From Streptomyces camelliae (GTDB lineage Bacteria > Actinomycetota > Actinomycetes > Streptomycetales > Streptomycetaceae), in NCBI RefSeq assembly GCF_027625935.1, contig NZ_CP115300.1, forward strand, positions 1,922,001 to 1,986,000: a DNA stretch of 64,000 nucleotides. Reading direction: 5' to 3'. Shown piece by piece: positions 16,342 to 32,334 of the stretch. Position 1 is the first letter of the stretch, and each line of letters opens with the position of its first letter. A program made the translations under genes and the position numbers. The notes beneath the pieces are model-generated. The model saw only the letters and a list, made by a program, of their open reading frames with translations. It was not told the origin of the DNA and searched no databases.

Positions 16342-16384
16342 ACGGTAGGTCGGTGGTCTTGGCGGCCCCTTAGCCGTCGCTAAA
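16342..16384 (-). promoter_or_regulatory. SARP-type promoter of the module 3 PKS gene
   Basis: Minus-strand heptamers TTTAGCG (16384-16378), CTAAGGG (16373-16367) and CCAAGAC (16362-16356) at exact 11-bp steps, 8 bp, then -10 TACCGT (16347-16342). The same DNA can fold into a hairpin (CGGCCC 16363-16368 with GGGCCG 16387-16392, inner arms around TTAGC/GCTAA), so it might also act as a partial terminator after the preceding gene. The repeated spacing at other promoters favours an activator site. Confidence 0.65.
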
Positions 16385-16406
16385 GCGGGCCGCCGCGACC
16401 ACCTGG

Positions 16407-19400
16407 TCATTCGGGGGTTTCGAGGGTGCCGTCGAGCAGGCGGAACAGTTCCTCGTCGCTGGCGTCGTCGATCGCGTCGGCGGCCGGGCCGGAGTCGGGC
16501 TCGTGCTCCGGCCCGCGCAGCCTGCCCAGGAACTGCTGGAGTTTCGCCACGACCTCGCCGCGTGCCTCCGGGTCCGTGGCCAGCTCGGCCAGCTCGGTCT
16601 CCCAGCGTTCGAACGTGGCCGTCCACGCGTGGGGGGTGCCGTCCGGGAGCAGCTCGGCGAGCAGGTGATCGGCCAGACGCGTGACGGTGGGGTGGTCGAA
16701 GACGGCGGTGGTCCGCAGGTGCAGGCCGGTGAGTGTGCCGAGCCGGCGCCGTAGTTCGACAGCGGTCAGCGAGTCGACGCCCATGTCGAGGAAGCCGCGC
16801 TCGGTGTCGATGCCGTCGGCCGTCTCGAAGCCCAGCACGCGGGCCAGTTCGGCGCGGACCAGGTCCCGTACGGCCGGGCGGCGGTCCTGCTCCGGGAGGC
16901 GGCGCAGCCGGTCGGCGAGCGCTTCGTCGGCGGACGCGGCCCGGGTGGTCTCCCGCGCCAGGTGCCGGGTGGCGCGGACCAGGCCGGACAGCAGGGCGGG
17001 CGGTTCCTCCCCGGAGGCCTGCAACGCGGCCAGGTTCAGGTGCACCGGCGCCAGCACGGGCCGGTCGAGGGCCAGGGCGGTGTCGAACAGCCGCAAGCCC
17101 TGGGCGTCACCGATCCCGGCGATGCCGGACCGCTTGAGCCTGGCCAGCGCGCCCGCGTCGAGTGCGCCGCCCATGCCGCTCTCCCGTTCCCACAGGCCCC
17201 AGGCGAGGGACACGGCCGGTCGGCCGCTCGCCCGGCGGTACTGGGCGAGCGCGTCCAGGAAGGCGTTGCCCGCCGCGTAGTTGCCCTGCCCCGCGGTACC
17301 GAGGGTGCCGGCGACGGAGGAGAACAGGACGAAGGCGGTGAGCGGGGTGTCCTGGGTCAGCAGGTGGAGGTTCCAGGCGGCGTCCACCTTGGCGGACAGG
17401 ACGGTGCGCAACTGCTCGGCGGTCATGGTGGCGACGGTGGCGTCGTCGAGGACACCGGCCGCGTGCACGACGGCGGTCAGCGGATGCTCGGCGGGAACCG
17501 TCTCCAACAGCGCGGCCAGCGCCGCCCGGTCCGCCACATCACAGGCGACGACGGTCACCTCGGCACCCGACGCACGCAACTCCGCGGCCAGTTCCTCCGC
17601 CCCCGGAGCCTGCGCACCCCGCCTGCTGGTCAGCAGCAGACGCCGTACGCCGTACTCGGCGACGAGATGCCGGGCGAACAGTGCGCCCAGCCCACCCGTA
17701 CCGCCGGTGACCAGAACCGTGCCGTCGCCACCCCAGTCGGCCAATGCCTGCCCGGCCGGTGCGGCGGTCCGGGTGAGCCGCGGCACCAGGACGGTACCGC
17801 CACGCACCGCGAGCTGGGGTTCGCCCGCCGCCAGAGCCGCGGCCACGGCACGGCCGGGCAGCTCCGCCCCGTCCGTGTCCAGCAGGACGAGCCGGCCCGG
17901 TTCCTCGGCCTGTGCGCTGCGGACCAGCCCCCACACCGGCGCGATGGCCGGATCCGGCACCTCGCCGTCACGGGTGGCGACCGCCGACCGGGTGACCATG
18001 ACGAGGCGGCTGCCCGCCGTGGCCGGCTCGGCGAGCCACCGCTGCACCAGGGCGAGGGCGTCGGCGAGCGATGCTCCGGCCGCCGCCGGGACGTCCGGCC
18101 CGTCGGGTGCCGGCCCGGCCTGCAGGAGGACCGTGCCGGGGGCCGGAGCGCCCGCGGCGACCGAGGCCAGCAGCGAGGCGAGGTCCTCGTGGTGCCGGAC
18201 CGGGGCATCGGCGTCGAGCGGCACGGGCAGCGGCCCCACGACCGTCCAGGGGTGCGCCGGATCCGGTGTGCCGGGCGCTTCGGAGACCCCGAGGGGTGGA
18301 GCGGTCCACTCGACGCCGAACAGCATGCCGGGCACGGCCTTGTCGGCCAGCCGGTCGGCCGCGATCGTCCGCAGGGTCAGCGACTCGGCGGTCAGCAGGA
18401 CCGCGCCCGCGGCATCGGTCAGGGTGACGGACACCTCGTCCGCGCCGATCCGGCCGAGCCGGACCCGGACGGTCCCCTCTCCCGCCTGCGTACGGTGCGT
18501 GACACCGCGCCAGCCGAACGGCAGCCGTACGCGCCGAGGCCGGTCGGACGTCTCGTCGAGCAGATCGAGCAGCAGCGGGTGCAGGGCACCGTCCAGAAGG
18601 GCGGGGTGAACGGTGTGCCCGTCGGCGGATGGGGCGGCCTCCGGGAGCCGGACCTCGGCCAGCAGGTCGTCGCCGAGCCGCCACACCGCCTGAAGTGCCT
18701 GGAAGGCGGGCCCGTAGGCGTATCCGAGTTCGGACAGCCGGGGGTAGACCTTGTCGAGCGGCACGACGACCGCGTCCGCCGGTGGCCAGGGGCCGGCCGC
18801 CGCCGGACCCGCGGGCGGCGGACCGGCCGGTACGGGGCCCAGCACACCGGTCGCGTTCGTGGTCCAGAGGGCGTCCGGCTCGGCGTCGCCGGGCCGGGAG
18901 TGCACGCCCAGCGGCCGGCGTCCAGTGTCATCCGGCTGACCGACGATCAACTGCACGTCCACAGCACCCTGTTCCGGCAGGACCAGCGGTGCCTCCAGCG
19001 CCAGTTCCTCGACGGAGGAACACCCGCTCGAAACGGCCGCGTGCAGCGCCAGATCTAGCAGGGCCGCGCCGGGCAGCAGCACCACGCCGCCCATGGCATG
19101 GTCGGCGAGCCACGGCTGTGCCGCCACCGACAGCCGCCCGGTCAGCACCAGCTCACGTCGAGCGGCGAGCGTGACGGCGGCGCCGAGGAGGGGATGCCCG
19201 GTGGCATCGAGCCCGAACCGGTCGGCCCCGCCCGCCCCTTGAGAAGCATCCAGCCAGTAACGACGCCGCTGGAACGCATACGTCGGAACATCCACGACAC
19301 GCGCACCCGCCAGCTGCGCCGACCAGTCCACGGTCACACCGTGCGTGTGCAGCGCGGCCAACGCGGCGAACACCGTCGCCACCTCACCACGGTCACGACG

Positions 19401-31482: not shown

Positions 31483-32272
31483 ACTGACCGGGCTGACCGC
31501 CCTGGTGACCGGCGGTGCCTCTGGCATCGGGCTGGCCACCGCCCGCATGCTGGCGGCCCGGGGCGCGGCGGTGGCCTGCCTGGACCTCAACGCGCTGGAC
31601 ACGGACGGGAAGTCGGCCGTTCCCGAGCCGCTGATCGGGGTGTACGGCGACGTCGCGGACGACGCCTCGGTGGACGCGGCGGTGGCGGAGGCCGCCGAAC
31701 GGCTGGGCGGTCTGGACATCCTGGTGAACAACGCGGGCATCCTCGGCCGGGGAACCGTGGAGTCGGGTGGTCTCGACGAGTGGAAGCGGGTCTTCGACGT
31801 CAACGTGTTCGGCATGGTGCGGGTCGCCCGTGCCGCGCTGCCGTATCTGCGGCGCTCGGAGCACGCGTCCATCGTGAACATGTGCTCGCTGGGTGCCACC
31901 GTCGGGCTGCCCAACGCGGCGGTGTACTGCTCCTCGAAGGGAGCGGTGCTCGCCCTGACCACGGCCATGGCCGCCGACCATCTGCACGAGGGCATCAGGG
32001 TCAACTGTGTGACCCCGGCCCCGGTCGACACGCCGTGGGTACGCCGGCTCGTGGACGCCGCGCCCGACCCGGAGGCCGCCTTCGCCGCGGTCAGTGGGCG
32101 GCAGCCGAACGGTCGGCTGGTCACACCGGAGGAGGTGGCCACCGCGATCTGCTATCTCGCCGGCCCGGCCGCGGGCTCGACCACCGGGGTCTCGCTCCCT
32201 GTCGACGGGGGCAGCCGGGGTGTCCTGCTGAGCATGGATCCGCGTCTGCTGCCGGCCCGTTCCCGGCTCTGA
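31469..32272 (+). CDS. Short-chain dehydrogenase/reductase (SDR)
   Basis: 267 aa. It has the Rossmann motif TGGASGIG near the N-terminus, NNAG (~90), a Ser in MCSLGA and the YCSSK catalytic Tyr-Lys pair, a classical SDR of usual length. ATG 31469 is chosen because GGGGAGGA at 31456-31463 is its ribosome site; the frame opens slightly earlier at 31454. It overlaps the monooxygenase gene, so the two may act in sequence, for instance to oxidise or reduce a hydroxyl/keto group on the polyketide. The substrate is unknown. Confidence 0.88.
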   Translation: MSSGELTGLTALVTGGASGIGLATARMLAARGAAVACLDLNALDTDGKSAVPEPLIGVYGDVADDASVDAAVAEAAERLGGLDILVNNAGILGRGTVESGGLDEWKRVFDVNVFGMVRVARAALPYLRRSEHASIVNMCSLGATVGLPNAAVYCSSKGAVLALTTAMAADHLHEGIRVNCVTPAPVDTPWVRRLVDAAPDPEAAFAAVSGRQPNGRLVTPEEVATAICYLAGPAAGSTTGVSLPVDGGSRGVLLSMDPRLLPARSRL

Positions 32273-32291
32273 ATCCCCTGGCCCGGGCGGC

Positions 32292-32334
32292 TTAAGCGAG
32301 GCCCAAGCCGTCTGTAAGAGCCCCGGCCTAGGGT
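32292..32334 (+). promoter_or_regulatory. SARP-type promoter of the methyltransferase gene
   Basis: Heptamers TTAAGCG (32292-32298), CCAAGCC (32303-32309) and GTAAGAG (32314-32320) sit 11 bp apart, then 8 bp, then TAGGGT (32329-32334), a good Streptomyces -10. The methyltransferase ATG is at 32366. Of the three related promoters this has the clearest -10 and the best heptamer agreement. Confidence 0.7.

Follow-up and report, generated by a model that had tools for sequence, protein, structure and literature searches.

The window analysed here, a stretch of 64,000 nucleotides from the 9.6-Mb genome of Streptomyces camelliae (G000; the window is C1:1922001-1986000), has its left half filled by a gene cluster that combines polyketide synthase (PKS) and nonribosomal peptide synthetase (NRPS) genes. 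Three promoters of this cluster within the window (sites A, B and C) and a fourth to its left (site D) carry three direct repeats at 11-bp steps followed, 8 bp further on, by a predicted -10 hexamer, and the cluster also holds the gene of a small Streptomyces antibiotic regulatory protein (SARP). For SARPs, repeats stepped by 11 bp with the last one 8 bp from the -10 hexamer are a textbook operator layout. We consider sites A-D to be the operator-promoters of the cluster's own small SARP, with a probability of roughly 0.87 on the sequence evidence described below. Negative coordinates lie to the left of the window.

Site A, 30291..30333, minus strand: TTTAGAG-4-CCAAGGA-4-TTTGGCG-8-GACACT (letters re-extracted by script), promoter of the 4612-aa PKS gene
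Site B, 16342..16384, minus strand: TTTAGCG-4-CTAAGGG-4-CCAAGAC-8-TACCGT, promoter of the next PKS genes, and also of the FAD monooxygenase gene if they form one operon
Site C, 32292..32334, plus strand: TTAAGCG-4-CCAAGCC-4-GTAAGAG-8-TAGGGT, promoter of the methyltransferase gene and probably of the flavin reductase and SnoaL-like genes
Site D, L019:12946-12904 = window -7054 to -7096, minus strand: TTTGGCC-4-TTAAGGG-4-ATTAGAA-8-CATCCT (19.0 bits)
SARP gene, G000:C1:1906914-1907705 = L019:4914-5705 = window -15086 to -14295, minus strand: 263 aa

Geometry of sites A-D

The letters, 11-bp steps and 8-bp gaps of sites A, B and C are exactly those given in an earlier note on this DNA, both on reading and by script. 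All four sites consist of direct repeats at 11-bp steps with the last repeat 8 bp from the -10 hexamer; both the step and the offset were subjected to controls (see below), and the -10 hexamers themselves are predictions. The geometry fits repeats lying over the -35 region. Sites A-D have 12 heptamers between them, none of the TCGAG type of the ActII-ORF4/DnrI class, and what is conserved amounts to a YYWAG core of 5 bp and a further 6 bp, which corrects the heptamer reading. On gene order, site A would serve the 4612-aa PKS gene and site B the remaining PKS genes together with that of the FAD monooxygenase; site C would serve the genes of the methyltransferase, the flavin reductase and the SnoaL-like protein, and site D, which starts 108 bp 5' of a cytochrome P450 gene, this gene and the ferredoxin and MFS transporter genes that follow it. 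The earlier note drew a tie between the methyltransferase and the PKS genes; site C fronts the former and sites A and B the latter.

Matrix scans in the source genome

A matrix of three heptamers at 11-bp steps was run over both strands of 164 kb (the window, 60 kb to its left and 40 kb to its right; 327,914 start positions), with gene starts taken from our own gene model for this region. When each site was held out of the matrix, A, B and C ranked 3rd, 2nd and 3rd of the 327,914 positions, the other two places of the top three always being filled by the remaining two sites. With the full three-site matrix the fourth-best position was site D, and the next position without overlap reached 11.8 bits. 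The earlier note had looked to the rest of the cluster for further triplets, and one was found outside the window, before the P450 gene; its concern that equally good triplets might stand at many unrelated promoters found no instance in the 164 kb. When the matrix was instead derived from 19 sites in other clusters, the four sites took ranks 1-4 (24.7, 24.6, 24.5 and 22.5 bits), the next non-overlapping position reaching 9.6 bits; these foreign sites had been collected with the three-site matrix, so that their DNA is independent and their search history is not.

Whole-genome specificity was judged from two sequence-only covariance models, R1, trained partly on A-D, and R2, an alignment model of foreign sites that listed site A alone; models of this type permit gaps and local matches and are poorer than the rigid matrix. 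Under R1 the four sites lead the genome with 22.3, 16.2, 15.5 and 14.5 bits, and the fifth place follows at 14.4 bits, 0.1 below the fourth site (150 of 2015 candidates scored). The places elsewhere in the genome that come near the scores of this model are C1:7938866 (L139, minus strand; 14.4 bits) and C1:1065269 (L140, minus strand; 13.0 bits). Beside another SARP, near 4.45 Mb on C1, stands the triplet TCAAGCC/TCAAGTG/TCAAGCG (L118:12609, plus strand) at 11-bp steps, with 20.4 bits and no -10 hexamer at 8 bp.

The cluster-situated SARP gene

The earlier note had placed the SARP gene outside the window, and a 263-aa SARP is indeed encoded about 14.3 kb to the left. A search of the genome for the BTAD domain returned 16 matches, one of which, at C1:1906959-1907396, lies left of the window. 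The protein has an N-terminal OmpR-type winged helix-turn-helix (PF00486, Trans_reg_C; E 4.5e-8, residues 24-75) followed by the BTAD domain (PF03704; E 6e-42, residues 104-249). Its gene is cluster-situated, being the last of a run of Dieckmann cyclase, NRPS and SARP genes, and overlaps the end of the C-A-T NRPS gene by 4 bp. Control of the SARP gene by bldA was considered and rejected, as this gene has no TTA codon; the preceding NRPS gene has one. Autoregulation was likewise rejected, the best site before the Dieckmann cyclase-NRPS-SARP genes scoring 5.8 bits. Elsewhere in this genome, the second contig (273 kb) has four SARP genes with an LQTY helix packed into some 6 kb (G000:C2 ~67960-74265; L001, L002, L006 and L009).

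Conservation in close relatives

A search of named genomes with the methyltransferase returned four loci. One, in Streptomyces sp. CoH27, is 98% identical in DNA; another, in Kitasatospora phosalacinea NRRL B-16228, shows blocks of 81-84% identity over the unique genes. A SARP of the latter species is 79% identical to the cluster SARP. Both sites covered by the K. phosalacinea locus are kept, with -10 hexamers identical to those of A and C and the 8-bp gap exact: A' reads TTTAGCG/CCAAGGC/TTTGGCC-8-GACACT (L023:5039-5081, minus strand) and C' reads TTTAGCG/CAAAGCG/TTTGGCA-8-TAGGGT (L023:7144-7186, plus strand). Between A and A' the three 5-bp cores are unchanged and the differences fall in positions 6-7 and in the spacers; between C and C' all repeats have changed and the fit to the motif is retained. 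The remaining two loci, from distant metagenome-assembled genomes labelled Deltaproteobacteria and Deferribacteraceae (L024 and L025), were left out of the comparison; scanned once, they gave best scores of 13.3 and 17.6 bits, with NANNNT at 8 bp in none of the listed matches. The orthologous cluster of genome G013, whose SARP is 95% identical, has all four sites with the same -10 hexamers.

The same repeats in a branch of SARPs

Leaving aside G013 and one genome of the same species, genus searches of 101 and 392 genomes (E <=1e-60) found SARPs 47-53% identical to the cluster SARP in 41 genomes. The surroundings of 25 of these 41 were examined over about 20 to 60 kb each, some being ended by contig ends; near copies, namely G013 of our own cluster and G184 of G047, stand outside the 25. 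Thresholds were fixed on the first 15 clusters and applied unchanged to ten held-out clusters. The clusters were scanned with a matrix from A, B and C only, and the counts of steps and offsets take in non-coding matches of at least 13 bits; in these counts overlapping matches within 40 bp were merged, and in those of pair patterns they were left unmerged.

In the first 15 clusters, 22 matches were obtained at step 11 against 1, 0, 6, 4, 1 and 0 at steps 8, 9, 10, 12, 13 and 14, and in 13 of the 22 the third repeat was followed at exactly 8 bp by NANNNT, against 0-1 at each of 19 other offsets (background 2.2%). The held-out ten gave 12 matches at step 11 against 1, 0, 5, 1, 1 and 1 at the same other steps, with NANNNT at 8 bp in 7 of the 12 and in none at the 19 other offsets. 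Pairs of either new core with NANNNT at 8 bp occur at 26 sites, spread over 17 of the 25 branch clusters. Among the clusters that have no such pair, G298, G255 and G187 have a matrix match with a -10 hexamer all the same (12.9, 15.3 and 17.2 bits), and G349 has a 20.4-bit match that lacks one. An alignment (A1) of 25 sites was chosen for NANNNT at 8 bp, so that its A39 and T43 are invariant by construction and its G5 columns are partly owed to the matrix.

The repeat nearest the -10 hexamer matches at all 26 sites, the middle repeat at 22 and the distal one at 11; hence the working unit looks like two repeats beside the -10 hexamer with an optional third. Such a unit may be likened to the 22-bp afs box of AfsR (PMC10936776; here and below, statements on published systems follow the excerpts at hand of the cited papers). 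The genes behind ten of the branch sites encode three PKSs, two glycosyltransferases, a P450, an aminotransferase, an FAD enzyme, a DDE transposase-like protein and one protein without a match. As the genes behind the sites are of several kinds, the branch set is not one cluster seen repeatedly, even if there are related ones among the 25.

A tree built from 47 SARPs places the 18 motif-labelled rows in one branch of 33 rows (support 99/96), distributed over several of its sub-branches; the label needs 6 changes on this tree, so that losses or misses exist. Of the 14 rows outside the branch, only 2 were already scanned at the time of tree building, and nine were added afterwards. A tight subgroup of 267-aa SARPs with the helix LHVYVSQIRK (G055, G096 and G360; L062-L065, L113-L114) has no such operator with a -10 hexamer in the 40 kb scanned. 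In the branch member G038 (L072:8772, minus strand), whose SARP has the deviating helix HVRICELRK, a pure GCAAG triplet is followed at 8 bp by CAGGAT; a second SARP is close by.

Contrast with classical TCGAG operators

The small SARPs ActII-ORF4 and DnrI use TCGAG heptamers; like them, the cluster SARP is small and cluster-situated, and its proposed repeats step by 11 bp and end 8 bp before the -10 hexamer. For comparison, ten and then nine regions of SARPs outside the branch were collected and regrouped by recognition helix into 11 LQTY (one of them VQTY), 5 LQVY/LHVY and 3 others. A pair was counted when at least two repeats were followed by NANNNT at 8 bp, and was judged against offsets 6, 7, 9 and 10; the pair patterns were written after the held-out scan, and both cluster sets were counted. 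Pairs of [CTG]T[AT]AG occur in 13 of the 25 branch clusters and in 0 of the 11 LQTY-type regions (Fisher p 0.003), whereas TCGAG pairs occur in 0 of the 25 and in 4 of the 11 (Fisher p 0.006), both tests treating clusters as independent though some are related. At control offsets 6, 7, 9 and 10 the LQTY group has 0, 0, 2 and 0 TCGAG pairs; it also has two TCAAG pairs (G098 and G056), close variants of TCGAG.

Recognition helix

In the AfsR complex, base-specific contacts are made by R92 and T88, the latter being highly conserved in known SARPs (PMC10936776). Aligned with the AfsR helix (AVRTYASRLRK), that of the cluster SARP (AIHVYISQLRK) has V and Q at these two positions, so that AfsR-type base contacts by T88 and R92 are not to be found in it. 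Among 27 branch rows (our own, G013, G184 and 24 of the 25 clusters, G327 being left unaligned), position 88 is V in 27, and 87 is H, 91 is S and 92 is Q in 26 each. Several LQTY-helix SARPs of the panel also have Q or H at 92, and it is therefore V88, with H87 and S91, that sets the branch apart. Of the 16 BTAD loci in the source genome, 10 had a helix readable by pattern, and among these the cluster SARP alone has the helix of the branch.

Five long-frame SARPs outside the branch have V88 as well (LQVYVSQ, LQVYISQ, LQVYVSH or LHVYVSQ). Their regions contain no pair of a single core; mixed CAAG/TTTAG pairs with NANNNT at 8 bp are present in 3 of the 5 and at none of the control offsets, which suggests that the helix sets the repeat. 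Such mixed CAAG-TTTAG pairs at 11 bp are seen in G003, G012 and G054 (L165-L170), all with LQVY helices, as if two half-codes were mixed in one operator.

Genes of the cluster and its likely product

1..9722, minus strand: in-window part of a 3879-aa gene between two PKS genes, next behind site B (from the gene model alone)
9749..16267, minus strand: type I PKS, 2172 aa, KS-AT-DH-ER-KR-ACP, first gene behind site B (domains scanned on a longer frame reaching 16330)
16407..30245, minus strand: type I PKS, 4612 aa, three KS domains, target of site A by gene order
30406..31482, plus strand: MupA/Atu3671-family luciferase-like monooxygenase, divergent from site A
31469..32272, plus strand: short-chain dehydrogenase/reductase
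32366..33202, plus strand: SAM-dependent methyltransferase, target of site C by gene order
33286..33819, plus strand: flavin reductase, probably of the site C operon
33927..34499, plus strand: SnoaL-like protein, probably of the site C operon
L019:8899-9660 = window -11101 to -10340, minus strand: NcmC-type Dieckmann cyclase, 253 aa, no Pfam match

Further genes of the cluster encode a 1094-aa PKS and an FAD monooxygenase. The 253-aa protein matches NcmC of nocamycin biosynthesis (PDB 6e6t) over nearly its full length (E 7e-56), and its gene is followed by that of a 1056-aa C-A-T NRPS. Because an NcmC-like Dieckmann cyclase is present in a PKS-NRPS cluster, the product is probably a tetramate. 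The nocamycin cluster is similar in joining PKS genes, one NRPS gene and a discrete Dieckmann cyclase (PMC5466765); its regulators are given there as LuxR, TetR and PadR types, one other transcriptional regulator and an AAA ATPase, and the word SARP is absent from that text. A known tetramate cluster with a SARP was sought, and none was found in the excerpts of the nocamycin and bripiodionen papers; the word is absent from both texts.

The 160-bp gap between the 4612-aa PKS gene and the luciferase-like gene (window 30246-30405) holds an operator for the PKS gene only. A candidate for the divergent luciferase-like gene was rejected as merely a partial reverse image of site A, with 2.7 bits.

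Discussion

We propose that two or three SARP protomers would occupy neighbouring repeats, one protomer to each helical turn, across a poor -35 region, where they would dock region 4 of the housekeeping sigma factor in place of the -35 element. RNA polymerase could then open promoters that offer no sigma signal other than a weak NANNNT -10 hexamer 8 bp downstream, and A, B, C and D would jointly switch on the operons of the PKS genes, of the P450, ferredoxin and MFS genes and of the methyltransferase. The mechanism is most likely that of AfsR, by analogy with the afsS promoter, where the 11-bp direct repeats end 8 bp before a poor -10 hexamer (PMC10936776); the same source gives the SARP rule as repeats 11 or 22 bp apart with the last one 8 bp from the -10 hexamer. 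AfsR likewise has an OmpR-type domain and a BTA domain, and its W74, P79, R94 and K95, mapped on the alignment, are kept in the cluster SARP. The cluster SARP differs in being small, with neither NOD nor TPR, and in T88, R92 and Q48 being V, Q and K; the repeats differ too, CGTT(T/C)ATCG in AfsR (PMC10972967) against YYWAG here.

Several results weigh against our proposal. The promoter of the SARP's own operon has no good site (5.8 bits), and the luciferase-like monooxygenase and short-chain dehydrogenase/reductase genes have no good operator on the plus strand (2.7 bits). The distal repeat of site D is decayed in G013. In eight of the 25 branch clusters (G055, G096, G031, G349, G298, G255, G360 and G187) no pair of the new cores with NANNNT at 8 bp was found, and the first ten comparison regions of other SARPs gave 3 matches at step 11, two with a -10 hexamer, against 2, 4, 4, 1, 0 and 0 at steps 8, 9, 10, 12, 13 and 14. 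The R2 model, run over the whole genome, put A first and left B, C and D unlisted (150 of 1833 candidates scored); run unfiltered on the window and L019 it had A first, a coding position second and D fourth, and gave C and B solely as shifted or partial matches.

Were the resemblance a chance one, picked by eye from promoters in a region of 72% GC, it would owe its appeal to the fact that the sites were chosen by reading and that short repeats with free positions are easily found; the leave-one-out ranks, the unseen fourth site at a cluster promoter, the conservation in K. phosalacinea and G013, the step and offset controls with their held-out replicate and the foreign-matrix control together leave this explanation with hardly any probability. 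The sites might also be real operators bound by another regulator, such as AfsR, PhoP or another SARP, with the cluster SARP acting elsewhere. One of the 16 BTAD matches in the genome carries the AfsR helix (L003), and AfsR and PhoP have a common direct-repeat site (PMC10972967); the repeat here is nevertheless unlike that site, it follows the SARP branch across several kinds of cluster, and four other SARP loci of the same genome have no match of at least 12 bits with a -10 hexamer at 8 bp, and we hold such a regulator to be improbable. Control of sites A-D by the cluster SARP is thus the reading that we adopt.

How the repeat is recognised is a separate question, to which the remaining alternative belongs. 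The SARP branch with the helix [IL]HVY[IV]SQ, with Val at the position of AfsR Thr88, seems to read YYWAG repeats. This may amount to a recognition code in which helices of the HVY(I/V)SQ type, with Val at AfsR position 88, read YYWAG, and Thr at that position reads TCGAG, a tentative proposal to which we give slightly less than even odds. The link between helix and repeat could instead reflect shared descent, ancestral operators having been kept while other residues or the BTAD domain set specificity; this is an alternative to the code and not to control by the SARP itself. The helix type does track the SARP tree, in which the motif rows share a single well-supported branch, yet mixed pairs accompany V88 in SARPs outside that branch and the target genes differ in kind; shared descent is a serious contender at somewhat below even odds.

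The earlier note took the AAG core to suggest a SARP of different specificity. A branch that does not use TCGAG is supported, with no TCGAG pair in its 25 clusters setting it apart from ActII-ORF4 and DnrI, but heptamers ending in AAG were already known for SARPs. PimR, SanG and PolR use CGGCAAG (PMC3367932) and are termed SARP-LALs (PMC10972967), the OtcR heptamer is CGGTCGAAG (PMC4393881), and the PapR2 repeat is GTCAGSS (PMC7040171). PimR, SanG, PolR and OtcR resemble the present case in having AAG-ended repeats at 11-bp steps, three of them in PimR, and differ in the upstream half of the repeat; the site of PimR also lies 93 nt from the start, off the -35 region. A description of a YYWAG operator, or of its tie to the HVY(I/V)SQ helix, was not found in the excerpts from open-licence PubMed Central, a scope that most subscription papers fall outside and that makes this weak evidence of absence.

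SARPs are favoured handles for waking silent antibiotic clusters, and the promoters that they read have usually been found one binding assay at a time. In the present case, a repeat read from raw sequence led to a regulator, a fourth promoter, a probable tetramate cluster and a branch of SARPs with the same operator. If the proposed code is true, the target clusters of many uncharacterised SARPs would be predictable from a single helix, and a small swap ought to be enough to direct an activator to other targets. If the link between helix and repeat holds, sequence would suffice to list the operators and regulons of the branch, and SARP specificity could be tested residue by residue.

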